Source: a virus
Strand: one strand, 5' to 3'
IMG/VR virus record: IMGVR_UViG_3300025073_000042
Span: 1 to 64,000 of that record
DNA length: 64,000 bases
The position numbers and the translations under genes were made by a program. Positions 2,705 through 31,972 of this stretch are shown piece after piece. Within the stretch, counting starts at the first letter, position 1. The number at the start of each line of letters is the position of its first letter. The notes below the pieces were generated by a model, which was not told where the DNA came from, did not search any database, and was given only the letters and a program-made list of their open reading frames with translations.

Positions 2705-3531
2705 GACCAGACCCGCACGAGCCACAGATGCACATGAGCAAAGCGTCGGTTGCCGAAGCGCACATTCCGCCTTGGCAGCGCGCCGTTGCCGCGTTCCTTG
2801 AATGGTGGCGCGCCCGGTGGCAGGCCGTCCCGGATGGGGAGTGCGCGAACTGCCCGGTGGAGCGCGAGAAGACGCGCATCTGGCAGGAGCGCGCAGAGGA
2901 GTGGGCGATGGACAACCTGCGTCTGGAGGAGCTGCTCGCAACCGAACAGATGAAGAGCACGCCCAGGCTGGGTTGCTGGGACGATGACCCAATCATGGGT
3001 CCGGTGATGCGCGAGGCCTACTTCGACGAGAAGCCCGTCATCGACGCCGACCTCGCGGTAGCGAGCGATACGCCGCTGCTTAGAGCCCCCCTGTGGAAAG
3101 CGTCGCCCAACGAGTGGGCTGCGCCTTCCGCCGCCGACCGCGCAGCCCCGCGCCCTTGTCTTGAATGCGGAACCTACGTTCCCGCCTCGGCTGGTGAGTG
3201 GCCGAGGTGCCCGAAGTGCGGCACCCCGTTGCCAAGTGCGAGGGAGTACCGCGAGAGGCGTATCGTATCCGCCGCTGACCGTTCCGCCGCGAGGCGGGAG
3301 GGACACGCGCTGAAGTGGCCGGAGGAACAGGCGGCCAAGCCTCGCCCGCTACCGCCGATCATGCGGTACGCGACCGCCCGAAGACGCGAGGCGGAGACGG
3401 GCATCCCGGTGGGCAAGTCCGCGATGTTCCGGGGGCCGGGTTGCACGAGGAGAGACGGCAAGCCCGCGATCACGACCGCCGAGATCATGGCGCGGGTCAG
3501 AGGGGAGGTCTCCCGATGCTCCGACGCCTGA
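2701..3531 (+). CDS. Zinc-ribbon phage protein, 276 aa
   Basis: ATG 2701 overlaps the previous stop. The N-terminal third is helical, rich in Trp and Arg, with one CANC pair. Around residues 158-182 a zinc-ribbon-type CLEC..CPKC motif is visible. The C-terminus is basic and ends GEVSRCSDA. It may bind nucleic acid, but I recognise no family. It overlaps the next gene's start by 16 bases. Confidence 0.55.
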   Translation: MRPDPHEPQMHMSKASVAEAHIPPWQRAVAAFLEWWRARWQAVPDGECANCPVEREKTRIWQERAEEWAMDNLRLEELLATEQMKSTPRLGCWDDDPIMGPVMREAYFDEKPVIDADLAVASDTPLLRAPLWKASPNEWAAPSAADRAAPRPCLECGTYVPASAGEWPRCPKCGTPLPSAREYRERRIVSAADRSAARREGHALKWPEEQAAKPRPLPPIMRYATARRREAETGIPVGKSAMFRGPGCTRRDGKPAITTAEIMARVRGEVSRCSDA

Positions 3532-7528: not shown

Positions 7529-7879
7529 ATGCGAAACCATGTCGCCGTCGAGGGCATCGAGATCGACTACCAGCCGCAGTACACGCAGCGCCCCTGGTTC
7601 GTGTTCGTGGCGCACACCGCCCCCCGCGGGAAGCGAACCCGCAAGACCGACGGCTGCTTCCCGACGCTGGACGAGGCGCGCGCCCGGAAGGGCGAGCTGA
7701 TGGAGCAGCGCCGCTGCCCCGGCTGGAGCACGCTGGCCGCCGCGAAGCGCGCGACGGACGAGGACTCTGTAACCGAACTCATAGCCGACGGCGCGACGCC
7801 CGAGGAGGCCTGGGCGCAGGTGGCCGAGTGGCGGGCAATGGCCGAGGACCCGACCGCCGGGATTGAGGGGGTGGTGTGA
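7529..7879 (+). CDS. Hypothetical protein, 116 aa
   Basis: GAGAGGGGACTCCG precedes ATG 7529. This fits better than ATG 7475, which overlaps the clamp stop. The product begins MRNHVAVEGIEIDYQPQYTQ and has a C-terminal helical region (SVTELIADGATPEEAWAQV). Unknown family. It ends in GTGATG, overlapping the next start. Confidence 0.5.
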   Translation: MRNHVAVEGIEIDYQPQYTQRPWFVFVAHTAPRGKRTRKTDGCFPTLDEARARKGELMEQRRCPGWSTLAAAKRATDEDSVTELIADGATPEEAWAQVAEWRAMAEDPTAGIEGVV

Positions 7880-8274
7880 TGGAGTTGACCAGGTACGGAG
7901 GAAAGACCCGCGCCGCCTCCCGAACCACGTTGTGGAGGCGAAAGACTGGAAGGCTTCCCGGACGACCATTACCGCCCCCTCCGGACCCGGAGTGGGCAGA
8001 AACAAACCTGCTGCTATTGCAGCAGGCGGCCGAACGAGGCGCGCGGATCGCGCAACGGTTCGCGGTCCGGCGTTGGTCGCAAAGAGAGCAGGACAGCGAT
8101 GAGTTCGATGAACTGATCGCCGTTGCGCTCATGCGGCTTGTTGAGTCATCTGGATGGCCTCAGCGCACCAGTGTGCGTTGGTTGATCGCAGTGGCGCGAA
8201 ACGCGGTGCTATCACACTGGAGACAGCATATCATTGGCCCGGCAAAACGCCGGGCAGAAGGGGACCTAACATGA
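7879..8274 (+). CDS. Sigma-70 region-2-like protein
   Basis: A 131-aa protein. After a basic, Pro-rich N-terminus, residues about 75-120 (DEFDELIAVALMRLVE, then TSVRWLIAVARNAVLSHWRQH) resemble region 2 of sigma factors: the acidic 'DDL.Q.a...l' helix and the 'wl..iarN...d..R' helix that contact core polymerase and the -10 element. No region 4 is seen. It could redirect host RNA polymerase or serve as an anti-host regulator. Based on motif pattern only. Confidence 0.4.
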   Translation: MELTRYGGKTRAASRTTLWRRKTGRLPGRPLPPPPDPEWAETNLLLLQQAAERGARIAQRFAVRRWSQREQDSDEFDELIAVALMRLVESSGWPQRTSVRWLIAVARNAVLSHWRQHIIGPAKRRAEGDLT

Positions 8275-8960
8275 TTGCACTAAGGCCGTCCGCCTCTGTC
8301 ATTCAAGAGGCCCAAGACCAAGACATAGACATATCCGCGCTGTTCCCGTCAGCTTGTACGCAGTGCCTCGCCGGTGAACCTGTGATCGGGTTCGCCGGAC
8401 CTATTCCGGCTGCAATACCACGATGGACGCAGATCGGGGAGTGGATAGTGGAGGTATGTTCACTCCCCGCATTGCGGTGGAAGGCCACGACCAACGAGCG
8501 CTTGTATACGGCCCGTTGGTCGTGGGCGGAATATGGTACAGCAGGGGAAGGGAAACTCGACCTCCGCGCCCCTGAGCCCCTGGAAACGGGGCAGGTCTGG
8601 CTGCTGCGTGATGTTATACGCAGTAAGCTCCTCACGACGACCCCAGTGATAAAGGGGTCAGTCTACGGGGAACGTGTCGAACGCATTGTTGCCCCCCGCG
8701 AGAAGGCATCAGGGAGGGCAACGTGGTTGTTTGAACGTCGGCTTGAGTTTTGGCCGACGGAGGAAACTCAAACGCACCACCTCAAGTATGATGTGGTGCG
8801 GTCGAAGACAACCTTCTCGGGAGCAGGGAAGCAGTACGTGCGCCAATTACCTCTCCTGGCGGATGGTACTGCGGAGTGGCGTGTCTGGGGCGGGTATCGT
8901 TCCGGGCGCGCCTGGACGCAAGCGCGGCTGTCGGTTGTCCATCTGCTGGAGGTGGTCTGA
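8271..8960 (+). CDS. Hypothetical protein, 229 aa, lower GC
   Basis: ATG 8271 overlaps the previous stop. The product has few repeats and many Trp/Arg residues (WTQIGEWIVEVCSLPALRWK). It includes a PVIGFAGPIPAAIPRW stretch and a central ETGQVWLLRDVIRSKLLTTT stretch. No family recognised. Codon use looks visibly less GC-biased than its neighbours, which suggests more recent acquisition. Confidence 0.5.
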   Translation: MIALRPSASVIQEAQDQDIDISALFPSACTQCLAGEPVIGFAGPIPAAIPRWTQIGEWIVEVCSLPALRWKATTNERLYTARWSWAEYGTAGEGKLDLRAPEPLETGQVWLLRDVIRSKLLTTTPVIKGSVYGERVERIVAPREKASGRATWLFERRLEFWPTEETQTHHLKYDVVRSKTTFSGAGKQYVRQLPLLADGTAEWRVWGGYRSGRAWTQARLSVVHLLEVV

Positions 8961-9157
8961 TGGGCCGCCACCGGATGCTGCCCGACGGCGAGCTGATGGT
9001 CGCCCATCGCGTCTACCTCCGCCCCGCCGAGGACCTCGCCCTGCGCGCCGAGGTCGTCCGGCGACGGACGGCCGGCGAGTCTGAGCGGGCGAGCTACTCC
9101 GCCGTCGTGAGGGACCTGATCCGCGCGGCGCTCGTGGCGCCGGAGGCCCAGGCATGA
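8960..9157 (+). CDS. Ribbon-helix-helix-like small protein, 65 aa
   Basis: The C-terminal half (AEVVRRRTAGESERASYSAV, then VRDLIRAALVA) looks like the two helices of a ribbon-helix-helix DNA-binding fold, with LMVAHRVYLRPAED as the preceding strand. It is coupled by ATGATG-type overlap to its neighbours. DNA binding is inferred. Confidence 0.4.
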   Translation: MGRHRMLPDGELMVAHRVYLRPAEDLALRAEVVRRRTAGESERASYSAVVRDLIRAALVAPEAQA

Positions 9158-9387
9158 GCTTCCTCGTCCGCGTCTCCTGGCCCGAGGACGACGGCCACTT
9201 GGCGCAGATGCCGGATGGTTCCGTGGGGATTGCTCCACGCGGCGACGGGAGGCCGTTGGCTTTCCGCGAAGAGTGGCGCGCCGCGGCGGCTGCCGCGCTC
9301 TGGGCTCCCGGCATTGACGCCGTGCAGCGAGAGCAGGGGATCGAACCGAACCACACGTTCCGCATCGAGAGGAGTGACCCGACATGA
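9154..9387 (+). CDS. Hypothetical protein, 77 aa
   Basis: It overlaps both neighbours by four bases. The N-terminus (MSFLVRVSWPEDDGHLAQMP) is strand-like, followed by an Ala-rich helix. No family recognised. Confidence 0.45.
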   Translation: MSFLVRVSWPEDDGHLAQMPDGSVGIAPRGDGRPLAFREEWRAAAAAALWAPGIDAVQREQGIEPNHTFRIERSDPT

Positions 9388-16449: not shown

Positions 16450-16513
16450 GCAGTCAAGCAGTCAAGCACACAAGCAGTCAAGCACACAAGCAGTCAAGCA
16501 CACAAGCAGTCAA
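16450..16513 (+). repeat. Eight tandem 8-bp units (GCAGTCAA / GCACACAA)
   Basis: Eight contiguous 8-mers follow the order T T C T C T C T, where T is GCAGTCAA and C is GCACACAA, making a 16-bp superunit repeated three times. They lie between the terL hairpin and the ribosome site of the next gene. Confidence 0.9.
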
Positions 16514-23603: not shown

Positions 23604-23632
23604 TTGACGCGATAGGGTGTTCGCAGTATGCT
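23604..23632 (+). promoter_or_regulatory. Promoter TTGACG-17-TATGCT
   Basis: -35 at 23604-23609, -10 at 23627-23632, spacing 17. No gene lies between it and the terminator at 23827-23852. Confidence 0.8.
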
Positions 23633-23638
23633 GACCTC

Positions 23639-23858
23639 GCTCGTCCCAGGTAATGACCTCGCGAGGGGTCAGGTGAGCAGCCGCGGTGGGGAATCCGCCC
23701 CGTCCCGGAGCGGCACCCCCGGTCCCGTTTGAGGAGCGTGTACCCGGACTCAATCCCGTGGCCACGGGGAGTTCGGGGGCGCCGGCCATAACCTGGCTAA
23801 ACCCGCCCATGTCTTCACATGGGCTGAAGGCCGCTCCGCGAGGGGCGGCCTTCGCTTT
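23639..23858 (+). ncRNA. Candidate ~220-nt structured noncoding RNA
   Basis: It lies between its own promoter and terminator, with no plausible ORF. CCAGGTAATG (23646-23655) pairs with CATAACCTGG (23787-23796) over 9 of 10 positions as a closing helix. Inside are GACCTC-GCGA-GGGGTC (23655-23670, GNRA loop) and a long hairpin around TCCCGTGGCCACGGGGA (23754-23770). After the closing helix comes GCCCATGT-CTTC-ACATGGGC (23805-23824), then the terminator. I know no matching family. Confidence 0.6.
23827..23852 (+). terminator. Intrinsic terminator hairpin with GCGA loop
   Basis: AAGGCCGCTCC (23827-23837) and GGGGCGGCCTT (23842-23852) form an 11-bp stem (one G-U) on a GCGA tetraloop. A short T-run (CGCTTT) follows. 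Confidence 0.75.
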
Positions 23859-23863
23859 GGGGG

Positions 23864-23892
23864 TTGACATCATCGACGGCTCTAGGTATACT
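23864..23892 (+). promoter_or_regulatory. Promoter TTGACA-17-TATACT
   Basis: Perfect -35 at 23864-23869 and strong -10 at 23887-23892, spacing 17, just after the terminator. It should start an RNA at about 23899-23900 that leads to the gene at 24401. Confidence 0.9.
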
Positions 23893-23899
23893 GAAAGCA

Positions 23900-23994
23900 C
23901 TTCGAGAGCTGTGCGGGTTTTGCGTTTTCGGACAACCTCTTCGGCCCCGGCAGCCCGCGCAGCTCTCGAAGGCAGCGCAAGCAGTCGGGGCCGA
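23900..23994 (+). ncRNA. 5'-terminal interleaved RNA structure (pseudoknot-like)
   Basis: An 18-bp helix pairs 23900-23917 (CTTCGAGAGCTGTGCGGG) with 23954-23971, with one G-U. A 9-nt segment of its loop (TCGGCCCCG, 23941-23949) is perfectly complementary to CGGGGCCGA at 23986-23994. The order A1-B1-A2-B2 is that of an H-type pseudoknot or of two competing helices. A1 begins at the predicted transcript start. Confidence 0.65.
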
Positions 23995-24013
23995 TTTGTG
24001 TTTCAATGAGAGG

Positions 24014-24385
24014 CGAGGCGTGGTACGGTACGGCGGGCTCGGGTTTGGTTGGGCGGGGCAAGGCAGGGCGAGGGTCGTTTGCTATCATCCGCTTCCATTG
24101 GCGTGGTGTGGCCGGGTGATGTGTGTTTTGGTGGGTCCTGGCGGGGTGAGGTTGGGCGAGGCGAGGCGAGGGCTGTAACCGCCATTCTACCTCTTCACGA
24201 GGTGAGGCGCGGTCCGGCTTGGTCCGGCTTGGTAAGGTAGGGTAGGGGTCGTTCGCCATCATCCATCTTCTCACGGTGAGGCAAGGTCAGGTGCGGCAAG
24301 GTCAGGTGAGGTGCGGTCTGGTCTGGTGCGGCAAGGTTTGGTCCGGCGAGGCGAGGCAGGGCGAGGGTCGTACCAATCACATCCC
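24014..24385 (+). repeat. Phased (Y-N-N-G-G) pentamer array with conserved spacers
   Basis: Four tracts of 5-base units run at 24014-24073 (12 units), 24102-24171 (14), 24198-24247 (10) and 24272-24366 (19). Nearly every unit is pyrimidine-N-N-G-G (CGAGG, CAAGG, TCCGG, TCTGG and so on). The phase never slips within a tract. Between tracts lie similar ~25-30-base spacers of the form GAGGGTCGTTTGCTATCATCC, and the last ends at the ribosome site AAGGAGGGA of the 24401 gene. Confidence 0.9.
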
Positions 24386-24400
24386 AAGGAGGGAGCAGAC

Positions 24401-24958
24401 ATGCAGACGTTCAGGGCAAGGATCGAGGGACTGTCGCCGCTGTTGATGCACCGCTTCAGCGAGGAAGCGGAGAAGGCCGTTGAGGAGCAGATCAAGACGA
24501 AGAAGGCCGATCACGGGACACCGGAGGAGGAGGCCGAACGCGCCGCATATCGGATCGACGGCCTGAACAGCGAGCTGTACCTGCCGGGCGAGGCGGTCTA
24601 CCAGTCGCTCGTGAAGGCTGGTGTCGGCTTCGCCGTCCCTGGCGCGCGGGGGAAGACCTACAAGGATTCTGTGAAGGGCATGGTCGTCATCCAGCCGGAG
24701 TGCATTCCGCTCGGCACTGATGAGTACGTCCTCGACTCGCGCCGGGTACGCATCCAGCGCGGAACGTGCATGAGGAAGCGCCCTCGCCTCGATCAGTGGG
24801 CGGCGGAGTTCGAGGTTATGATCTTGGACGAGGAGGCGTTGCCACCTGCGACGCTACTCGCCATCCTGCAGCGCGCCGGTCAGATGGTCGGGGTGCTCGA
24901 CTATCGTCCGCGCTTCGGGCGCTTCCAGGTGACGCTGTGGGAGCAGGTCGCGTCGTAG
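24401..24958 (+). CDS. Conserved phage protein (GLSPLLMHRFSEE family)
   Basis: A 185-aa protein with ARIEGLSPLLMHRFSEEAEK at the N-terminus, a charged GTPEEEAERAAYR loop, LYLPGEAVYQSLVKAG, RVRIQRGTCMRKRPRLDQW and a C-terminal GVLDYRPRFGRFQV. I remember similar proteins in phages and mobile islands, often annotated as hypothetical. The 'G..PLLM..f' and 'G..RP..GRF' ends are reminiscent of RAMP/Cas7-like RNA-binding folds, but this is weak. It follows a ~500-nt structured leader and may bind it. Confidence 0.6.
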   Translation: MQTFRARIEGLSPLLMHRFSEEAEKAVEEQIKTKKADHGTPEEEAERAAYRIDGLNSELYLPGEAVYQSLVKAGVGFAVPGARGKTYKDSVKGMVVIQPECIPLGTDEYVLDSRRVRIQRGTCMRKRPRLDQWAAEFEVMILDEEALPPATLLAILQRAGQMVGVLDYRPRFGRFQVTLWEQVAS

Positions 24959-25030
24959 GTGTTCGATGGTTGCGGCCAAAGCACGGTCGGACGAGACCCG
25001 CATTCGTGCGGGTCTTTCGTCGTCTGGCCC

Positions 25031-25062: not shown

Positions 25063-25219
25063 GACCGTCGCACCACAACAGAAGCTCGACGGTCCATCGT
25101 GTGTCGTGCCTGAAACGTTGCCCTCAGCGGGGGCAGCGTCTCGTCGGAGGCCCCGGAGGATCGCCGCGTCAAGCGCGTAGGGCTCAACCCCCTGCGCCTC
25201 GACGTTCGGCGACCCCGGG
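25063..25219 (+). promoter_or_regulatory. Structured leader of the 25246 virion gene
   Basis: GACCGTCG (25063-25070) pairs perfectly with CGACGGTC (25087-25094). Its loop can pair GCAC/CACA (25070-25077) with TGTG/GTGC (25100-25109). A second hairpin pairs ACGTTGCCC with GGGCAGCGT (about 25116-25139). A third pairs GGCCCCGG near 25149 with CCGGGGCC near 25212, enclosing a smaller GCGC hairpin. Confidence 0.5.
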
Positions 25220-25245
25220 GCCGCCGTCATTTCAGGAGGCACGCA

Positions 25246-25746
25246 ATGGACAGCACGGCGCTCCGCCCGAAGATCGCCCCGGTCGGCTTGTTCCGCACCG
25301 TTACCACCGACGACGACACCCAGAACCTGCCCGCCGTGAACACGTTCGCGCGCAACCCCGATGGTGCCTACGACTGGTGCCGGGTCTTCGCGCGCGTCTA
25401 CTTCCACGGCGACGCGGATGCGACGGTCAATCTGCGCTTCGCGACCGGCGTGCAGGACGGGGTGAACGGCGTCTCCTCGTCCGTGGAGCTGAAGGGTTGG
25501 CTCGTCGAGCCCATCGGCGCGTTCGGCGTCGCAGCGGACCTCACGCCGGATACGCCGGTTGTGGCCGACGGCAGCCACCAGCACCAGACGCCCTCGCTGA
25601 CCGAGGGCTGCTACGCGATCGACGTGCCGGTGTACGGCATGGACCTGTGGGTCGCGGTGAGCGGGTTCGCGGGCTACCCGACGGCCTACGATCCCGACTC
25701 GCAGGTAGAGTTGGCCGGGTGCTTCTTCAACAAGGCTGGTACCTGA
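25246..25746 (+). CDS. Putative virion decoration protein, 166 aa
   Basis: AGGAGGCACGCA precedes ATG 25246. The sequence is strand-rich with few charged helices (VGLFRTVTTDDDTQNLPAVN, ADATVNLRFATGVQDG, CYAIDVPVYGMDLWVAVSGF), typical of a small beta-sandwich. It lies just before the protease/scaffold and capsid genes behind its own promoter, which suggests a head decoration or stabilising protein. No family recognised. Confidence 0.45.
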   Translation: MDSTALRPKIAPVGLFRTVTTDDDTQNLPAVNTFARNPDGAYDWCRVFARVYFHGDADATVNLRFATGVQDGVNGVSSSVELKGWLVEPIGAFGVAADLTPDTPVVADGSHQHQTPSLTEGCYAIDVPVYGMDLWVAVSGFAGYPTAYDPDSQVELAGCFFNKAGT

Positions 25747-27975: not shown

Positions 27976-29382
27976 GTGGACGCAGGCCTCTATGATGCAC
28001 TGCTGAACAAGGCGCTGACCAGCGCCTCCGACTCGGGTGGAGCGTGGCAGGACCACATCTTCAACCCGATCTTGACGGACGCGGCCAAGAAGAAGCGGCC
28101 GATCCTGGAGTACCTCAACATCCGCCCGGCGAACGGCAACCCGCACGTCTTCCGGCGGCGCGACTCGATGCCCTACATGCACTGGCAGGGCGCGGCTGGC
28201 ACGCCGGTCGCGACGCAGAGCGGCGTCTCCGGCCCGTCGGTCAACCTGAAGGTCTGCACGGGCAGTGGCGCCGTGGAGAGCTTCCTCATCTCCACCATCG
28301 GTCCCGACAACTTCGACGTGGCTTTGGCCGAGGTCATGGGCTTCATCGAGGGGACCGCGATGCAGGTGTCGGCCTCGGTGCTGTGGGGCGACGCGGGGCT
28401 GAGTGCCACGGGCGTTGAGACCTCCGGCAACGGGAACATCTACATGCCCCCCGGCCTCGATGCGGACACCGGCATCATGCGGATCAACGGGGCCGGGGCG
28501 GCGCTCACGGATGCGCTGTTCCAGAAGCTGCTGGACACGACCAACGTTGCGGGCATGACCGGCAAGCGGTTCGCGATCATGTCCTCGATGATGGCCTCGC
28601 GCCTGGAGGCTGTCACGCAGTCGCTCGGCGCGCGGTACATGGTCGATGAGGAGGGCCTCTACGGCCGCCGGATCAAGAAGTACCGGGACTGCTACATCCT
28701 GGAGAGCGACCAGACCCGCCCGCGGGCGGTCATGGGCGCGATCTCCTGCGCGGGCAGCGACGGAAGCGGCACGCTCTCGAATGGCACGTACTACTACTAC
28801 GTGGCGCCCGTCACCGCCGAGGGCGAGCAGCTTCGCCAGGCCGCTGAGGCGGACGTCACCCTCGCCGCCGGCACGGCGACGCAGAAGGTGACGATCACCA
28901 TCACCGCCTTCCAGTTCTCCGACACCAACGCGTTGTATGCCGATGCCGTGTACTACAAGATCTATCGCGGCACGGGTACTGGCGCGGAGGTGCTCGTCGC
29001 GACGGTTCCGGCGCTGTCCTACAGCTCGGGCACCGTGAGCGGCGCAGACACGACGCTTGTGGATGACGGCACCGCTGACACGCGCGGCGGCGTGACGGGT
29101 TCGCTGCCGGGCGGTGTGTCCTCGGCCGACGACGAGCTGACTGGTACGGTGACGGCGCCCGAGGAGTGCATCTTCCTCGTGAACGCCGATCCGGCCGACG
29201 GCATCGAGATCGCGGCCAGCGCCAACAAGTCGGCGCAGGCCATCGGCGACAACGACCTGTTCGGCCTCGTGCGCCTGGGCAAGTCGGCGCTCAACGAGCC
29301 GTTCGCGGTGGGGTCGTTCGTCGCTCCGGTCATCAAGCGCGGCGCGTGCCACGGTGTCCTGCGGCGCGTGCTCGCGGCGTAG
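27976..29382 (+). CDS. Major capsid protein with inserted Fn3/Ig-like domain
   Basis: A 468-aa protein after the scaffold gene. The start is GTG 27976 behind TGGAGGGAG. The core (YDALLNKALTSASDSGG, NFDVALAEVMGFIEGTAMQV, FAIMSSMMASRLEAVTQSLG, RYMVDEEGLYGRRIKKYRDC) matches HK97-fold capsid proteins. Between about residues 257 and 375 a beta-rich domain is inserted (GTYYYYVAPVTAEGEQLRQA, AVYYKIYRGTGTGAEVLVAT), which reads like a fibronectin-III-type fold. The capsid sequence resumes with IFLVNADPADGIEIAASANK. Confidence 0.75.
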   Translation: MDAGLYDALLNKALTSASDSGGAWQDHIFNPILTDAAKKKRPILEYLNIRPANGNPHVFRRRDSMPYMHWQGAAGTPVATQSGVSGPSVNLKVCTGSGAVESFLISTIGPDNFDVALAEVMGFIEGTAMQVSASVLWGDAGLSATGVETSGNGNIYMPPGLDADTGIMRINGAGAALTDALFQKLLDTTNVAGMTGKRFAIMSSMMASRLEAVTQSLGARYMVDEEGLYGRRIKKYRDCYILESDQTRPRAVMGAISCAGSDGSGTLSNGTYYYYVAPVTAEGEQLRQAAEADVTLAAGTATQKVTITITAFQFSDTNALYADAVYYKIYRGTGTGAEVLVATVPALSYSSGTVSGADTTLVDDGTADTRGGVTGSLPGGVSSADDELTGTVTAPEECIFLVNADPADGIEIAASANKSAQAIGDNDLFGLVRLGKSALNEPFAVGSFVAPVIKRGACHGVLRRVLAA

Positions 29383-31508: not shown

Positions 31509-31972
31509 TGGCACGTCGCTGGGCGCCGGTCCCCATCGGGACGTATCTGGAGAACCTGCAGTCGATCCTGCAGGCTCAGATGCCGGGGCGGCTGGTGACG
31601 GCGGGACTACCGGCGGTCGTGACCTGGACGTACCAGGACGTGATGTTCGATTCGGACGACAAGCTGCCCCAGGTCTGCGTAGGCGCGAAGTGGGTGCATC
31701 GCCCGAAGGGCGGCGGGGGCAGCTTCGAGCCCATCTACTCGACGGAGATCATCTGCGCGTTCCCTTGGCTGGGGACGGGCGACGGCTACAAGGACGGGGC
31801 GGCGATGGCGTCGATTGCCGAGGCGCTCGTATACTACAACATCGGCAACGGCTACGAGGACGTGGTGGAGCGCACGGGGGTCGGCATGGCGGCGGGCTGG
31901 CGCGAGAGTCCTCCGCTGTGGCAGGGCGGGGTGTGGCGCGGCGAAGTGGTCGGCAGCCTGCTGTACTTCTGA
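31508..31972 (+). CDS. Tail terminator-like protein, 154 aa
   Basis: ATG 31508 overlaps the previous stop. An N-terminal helix (IGTYLENLQSILQAQMPGRL) is followed by alternating strands (PQVCVGAKWVHRPKG, YSTEIICAFPWLGTG) and a C-terminal WRGEVVGSLLYF strand, like phage tail-completion/terminator proteins. It precedes the tail tube gene by one gene. Confidence 0.5.
   Translation: MARRWAPVPIGTYLENLQSILQAQMPGRLVTAGLPAVVTWTYQDVMFDSDDKLPQVCVGAKWVHRPKGGGGSFEPIYSTEIICAFPWLGTGDGYKDGAAMASIAEALVYYNIGNGYEDVVERTGVGMAAGWRESPPLWQGGVWRGEVVGSLLYF

Follow-up and report, generated by a model that had tools for sequence, protein, structure and literature searches.

A divergent phage locus with four YNNGG repeat tracts and a Cas7-like RAMP gene, very probably a VIPR system

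In the genome of a phage known from metagenomic sequence, a stretch of about 370 nucleotides repeats the pentamer YNNGG directly upstream of a small gene, which raises the question of what reads such a pattern and what the unconstrained bases within it encode. The window analyzed here is the whole stretch of 64,000 nucleotides that makes up positions 1 to 64,000 of the IMG/VR virus record IMGVR_UViG_3300025073_000042 (79,951 bases). A preliminary description of this DNA, made from the sequence alone, had offered two readings of the array: a multimeric protein that binds RNA or single-stranded DNA at 5-nt steps, or stacked two-tier G-quadruplexes.

A system with these features, the Viral Interference Programmable Repeat (VIPR), was published in 2026 (PMC13142463). 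In the Escherichia phage SUSP1, where a type II VIPR has been shown experimentally, the protein Vipr binds vrRNAs of ~100 nt that are composed of 9–16 YNNGG repeats and a 3′ tail. The NN dinucleotides of the vrRNA base-pair with double-stranded DNA, one target base being skipped from each dinucleotide to the next; binding of Vipr silences transcription, and the natural targets are satellites and prophages (PMC13142463). The locus in the window is very probably a VIPR system, comprising a guide-RNA array and Vipr. The phenomenon is thus already published, and the window locus is a new, divergent representative of it. Its phage origin is consistent with the usual viral or proviral home of VIPR.

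The repeat array and its transcription signals

Four YNNGG tracts, all on the + strand, occupy positions 24012–24366 of the window. In the interval 24014–24385, 48 pairs of GG dinucleotides are spaced at lag 5, compared with 13.5±3.2 (maximum 24) in 1000 dinucleotide-preserving shuffles of the same interval, and 46 pairs are spaced at lag 10; the period-5 excess claimed in the preliminary description is borne out. The longest phased GG run of the array is 19 units, compared with a maximum of 8 in the shuffles, and phased runs in the rest of the window do not exceed 5 on either strand. A scan of the 80-kb record for further arrays returned none, except for one 5-GG match at 31920.

The vrRNA1 repeat tract (24012..24073) contains 12 GG in 13 positions, the remaining position being GC, and has the NN series GA GT AC AC GG CG TT TG GG AA AG GA. 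The vrRNA2 tract (24097..24171) is composed of 15 units, three of them imperfect (TGATG, TGTGT, and TGGGT), while the vrRNA3 tract (24198..24247) and the vrRNA4 tract (24272..24366) are strict runs of 10 and 19 GG units, respectively. The earlier counts of 12, 14, 10, and 19 units are essentially right, with tract 2 revised to 15; the phase, which had been said never to slip, is strict in tracts 3 and 4, but tracts 1 and 2 together contain four imperfect units. The elements previously described as conserved spacers are the sequences at the 3′ end of each tract. The tails of vrRNA1, GGGTCGTTTGCTATCATCC (24074..24096), and of vrRNA3, GGGTCGTTCGCCATCATCC (24248..24271), each share their first two G's with the last repeat unit, and an exact 19-mer, GGGTCGTTYGCYATCATCC, follows tracts 1 and 3; 0.07 chance matches to this 19-mer are expected in the window with up to three mismatches allowed. 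Conservation does not extend to the vrRNA2 tail (24172..24197), which has diverged, and is partial in the vrRNA4 tail (24367..24385; GGGTCGT...CATCC), which adjoins the ribosome-binding site. All of these tails lie on the + strand.

The signals that flank the array, likewise on the + strand, would fit one transcription unit. A promoter-like element, TTGACA-17-TATACT (23864..23892), matches the consensus at 11 of 12 positions and lies directly 5′ of the predicted array transcript; two such sites are found in the 3.5 kb scanned, with 0.3 expected. The predicted transcript would begin with a hairpin leader (23900..24003), which has a stem of ~22 bp and a calculated RNA fold of −52.5 kcal/mol (z −3.6), and which may cap the RNA. 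All four guides sit between this near-consensus promoter and leader and the vipr gene (24401..24958), which is preceded by a ribosome-binding site, AAGGAGGG (24386..24393), 7 nt 5′ of its ATG. Downstream of vipr, a terminator-like hairpin, GACCCGCA/TGCGGGTC followed by TTTCGTC, can be read at 24994..25014; it has few Ts and was not picked by the terminator scanner. A single transcript from near 23900 would carry four vrRNAs, each made of a YNNGG tract that ends in a short 3′ tail, and then the vipr message. The next gene, at 25246, has its own leader, and the major head protein is encoded at 27976, a few kilobases downstream of the locus.

Other structured elements are present in the window, in which an Rfam search gave no match. 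Just upstream of the array, positions 23604–23860 form a separate transcription unit with a promoter-like TTGACG-17-TATGCT and a strongly folded stretch of ~220 nt (z −3.4) that ends in a terminator-like hairpin; with no Rfam match, this unit is a possible novel non-coding RNA. The leader of the gene at 25246 (25065–25245) has an extremely strong predicted fold (z −6.7), and a 16-bp repeat, CAAGCAGTCAAGCACA, is present in 3.7 perfect copies in an intergenic gap at 16450–16513.

The Vipr protein and its linkage to the array

The vipr gene encodes a 185-residue protein that belongs to PHROG 4652 (E 1e-22), a family listed as of unknown function. No Pfam family reaches the cut-off for this protein, and PADLOC returned no match. 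A profile built from 65 homologues gave one strong match in the PDB, entry 36pp, “SUSP1 Vipr protein” (E 5e-44), which is also matched by the single sequence (E 1.7e-10). The AlphaFold2 model (pLDDT 93.7) most closely resembles, in a Foldseek search of the PDB, the backbone subunits Csm3 and type VII Cas7 (E 1e-6), and a glycine-rich C-terminal loop, GxxDxRPRFGRF, is conserved among the homologues. The protein is therefore a small RAMP with a single RRM and a homologue of SUSP1 Vipr, as in published VIPR systems. A tblastn search found relatives in 129 phage records. Most of these are Felixounavirus-like coliphages, and Gordonia, Mycobacterium, and Pseudomonas phages are also represented; the SUSP1 protein is among these homologues, and six plasmids also hold relatives. 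A search of genome contigs with P0001 did not find a close relative.

Linkage between gene and array was assessed from both directions. A DNA-only scan of viral contigs with the pattern (GGYNN)x8+GG identified at least 120 array contigs, which were searched for homologues with an iterated HMM derived from nine homologues. A Vipr homologue is encoded in the fetched stretch of 90 of the 120 listed contigs and elsewhere on the contig in six more (28 contigs were tested at full length); the homologue lies nearly always less than ~1 kb from the array and on the same strand. Conversely, all 13 loci that were found by protein (L001–L008, the SUSP1 locus L130, and four plasmids, L235–L238) carry a tract of at least six phased GG, whereas 542 kb of control sequence (104 loci) contains two tracts of at least that length. 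The weakest array among the 13 is that of L003, with 7 units, and the SUSP1 locus contains the same kind of arrays. A homologous gene lacking an array, the case that had been named in advance as evidence against the array claim, was thus seen at none of the 13 loci, and the claim stands. The preliminary description had also mentioned similar tracts upstream of related genes in other phages and proposed a search for them; such tracts do occur, both upstream and downstream of the gene. In the fetched data, the gene–array link is nearly obligatory, and this link, together with the homology to 36pp, supports the earlier nomination of the 24401 product as the binder. The DNA pattern alone finds VIPR loci with about 80% success and so offers a cheap search route.

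Two groups of arrays fall outside this description. Clean period-5 arrays are present with no Vipr homologue detected in 22 of the 28 contigs tested at full length; these 22, L031, L035, L039, L060, and L077 among them, reach 105 kb. Their arrays could be orphan guides used with the Vipr of another element, or their Vipr could be divergent. Very long arrays are observed in L027 (6294–6980, ~135 phased GG units) and L072 (about 7600–9200, tracts of 33–52 units), and perhaps correspond to the staggered overlapping guides mentioned for VIPR (PMC13142463).

The main features of VIPR that can be read from sequence are present in the window: a Vipr protein, YNNGG tracts, and phage origin. The 3′ tail, constant after each tract in VIPR, is common to at least two of the four tracts here. 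The array, its linkage to vipr, and the homology and fold of Vipr are direct observations on this locus.

Guide content and alternative readings

By analogy with SUSP1, processing of the RNA, its binding by Vipr, the skip rule, and repression would proceed in the window phage as in its characterized relative. Vipr would coat each tract, holding the GG and the Y and leaving the NN exposed, with one subunit per 5 nt as the period of the array suggests. The NN series would then pair with double-stranded DNA, with one target base skipped between dinucleotides, and the bound complex would keep a gene of a rival phage, prophage, or satellite from being transcribed. The earlier proposal of a multimeric protein that binds RNA at 5-nt steps agrees with what has been shown experimentally for the homologous SUSP1 Vipr (PMC13142463). 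The observation that only GG and Y are held is likewise confirmed as a pattern, but the probable role of the NN as the carrier of information, in a gapped guide that pairs with target DNA, had been missed.

If the two bases of each NN are copied from neighboring positions in a target, they should show the statistics of adjacent bases. In 390 tracts, the NN within a unit do resemble natural adjacent bases (TA low; AA, TT, and CG high), and their frequencies correlate with those of coding dinucleotides (r 0.73–0.92). The association between bases of neighboring NNs, which are separated by GGY, has a spread of 0.09, compared with 0.22 within the unit. These statistics fit copied, gapped target sequence, as expected, and do not fix the length of the skip; a search of the fetched loci for targets likewise gave no evidence for or against the skip rule. 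A comparison of codon phases by dinucleotide statistics singled out no phase, all phases being correlated.

Targets were sought by a seed search with a 1-nt skip, for all four guides in viral contigs and for guide 4 also in genome contigs. An exact search of viral contigs with 10 units of vrRNA4 gave 0 matches. The best whole-guide matches for the four guides are 18/24, 22/30, 17/20, and 29/38. In a judgment made without formal calibration, they do not exceed what seed selection and chance would yield; a convincing natural target was not found. The phage exonuclease family PHROG 298 recurred among the guide-4 seed matches (L146, L150, L151, and L155; motif LLAKFPED). As an established guide-4 target it was rejected: the best match among 75 fetched relatives is 28/38. 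No copy of this exonuclease is detectable in the record of the window phage, and a peptide search for guide 4 in phages found nothing. The collections searched may lack the neighbors of this phage, which would account for the missing matches, and the targets of the window guides could be predicted once neighboring phages are sequenced.

Could the array serve another purpose, or none? The window is GC-rich, as a chance, low-complexity, or protein-coding origin of the repeats would favor, but neither the shuffles nor the rest of the window come close to the array, its units vary at NN, and tracts of this kind recur beside homologues in very different phages. Chance, low complexity, and a coding repeat are ruled out by the shuffles, the contig scan, and the homologue-locus test. 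Two-tier quadruplexes (GGN3 repeats) could in principle arise from GG spaced at 5 nt, and might act as a signal for replication, packaging, or transcription. Such structures need no exact period, no linked Cas7-like gene, and no Y, whereas a pyrimidine follows GG in 94% of 5635 units, a figure that is partly selected by the search pattern. The quadruplex reading of the preliminary description is unneeded and highly improbable, as it leaves the Y, the free NN, and the linked Cas7-like gene unexplained.

Less remote, though still improbable, is a cis-regulatory leader, in which Vipr would coat its own 5′ untranslated RNA and stop its own translation in the manner of TRAP. The position of all four tracts in the vipr leader, the last ending ~20 nt before the ribosome-binding site, would suit such a role. 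In many homologous loci, however, arrays follow the gene or flank it on either side, and the SUSP1 tracts are separate guide RNAs of ~100 nt (PMC13142463). Autoregulation could also occur in addition to the guide function.

Comparison with known systems

TRAP is an 11-mer ring that reads (G/U)AG triplets. Like the proposed Vipr complex, it is a multimer that reads regularly spaced short RNA motifs; unlike in TRAP, the free bases of the window array would be the information. The 24401 protein shows no sign of TRAP homology; its matches are to SUSP1 Vipr and to folds of the Cas7 type.

The backbone of CRISPR class 1 systems (Csm3/Cas7, type III-A and type VII) shares with the window protein the RAMP fold and the glycine-rich loop and, by analogy, probably oligomerization on a guide RNA. 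The window system differs from CRISPR class 1 in its period (5 nt versus 6 nt), its putative gapped guide, and its single small protein, and no CRISPR-like array was found among the tandem repeats of the window. VIPR has been proposed as the ancestor of the CRISPR RAMPs (PMC13142463).

The closest known system is that of SUSP1, with which the window locus shares a homologous Vipr, same-strand YNNGG tracts, phage carriage, and several guides that are each followed by a 3′ tail. The two proteins are only ~26% identical, and vrRNA4, with 19 units, exceeds the 9–16 reported for characterized vrRNAs. In the SUSP1 clade, the tail has a conserved secondary structure with a pseudoknot (PMC13142463). 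The window tail differs in sequence and is without evident structure: the pseudoknot is not predicted for it, and single-sequence folds are weak. The same tail was found in no relative among the fetched loci. Unlike SUSP1, the window has guides only upstream of the gene and no adjacent vap, an accessory gene that is typical of VIPR and is not stated as required (PMC13142463). No vap was found beside the window vipr, and no ORF of at least 70 residues starts directly after it. A vap-less type is plausible because six vap genes are named for seven VIPR types (PMC13142463).

Elsewhere, a downstream gene common to a large Vipr branch (L102, L109, L112, L122, and others) is a candidate vap family with the motif LTPE-VV--A-NP-S-LH--F-WDD--AA, and is unlike the partner gene of SUSP1. 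By eye, the gene 3′ of vipr in L068 (after position 3020) looks like a small nuclease of the restriction type (motif IDFALPKEKILIECDGEKYH).

The window protein pairs with that of the IMG/VR contig L113 (support 98/94) in a maximum-likelihood tree and falls outside the supported clade of SUSP1, Medea1, and Gordonia and Mycobacterium phages; the window system branches deeply, apart from the SUSP1 clade. L113, the nearest relative found (45% identity), also has a period-5 array and no vap, and differs from the window in that its arrays lie downstream of the gene and carry the tail GGGGATTATTTTCC. Tentatively, and with considerable doubt, the two could represent a minimal VIPR lineage that lacks vap, possibly a separate type with self-regulated expression. 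All four guides of the window (one over-long, at 19 units) and vipr would then be expressed as a single transcript from one promoter, behind a hairpin-capped leader. With its deep branching, single protein, and four clear guides, the window locus provides a point of comparison for the minimal needs of VIPR.
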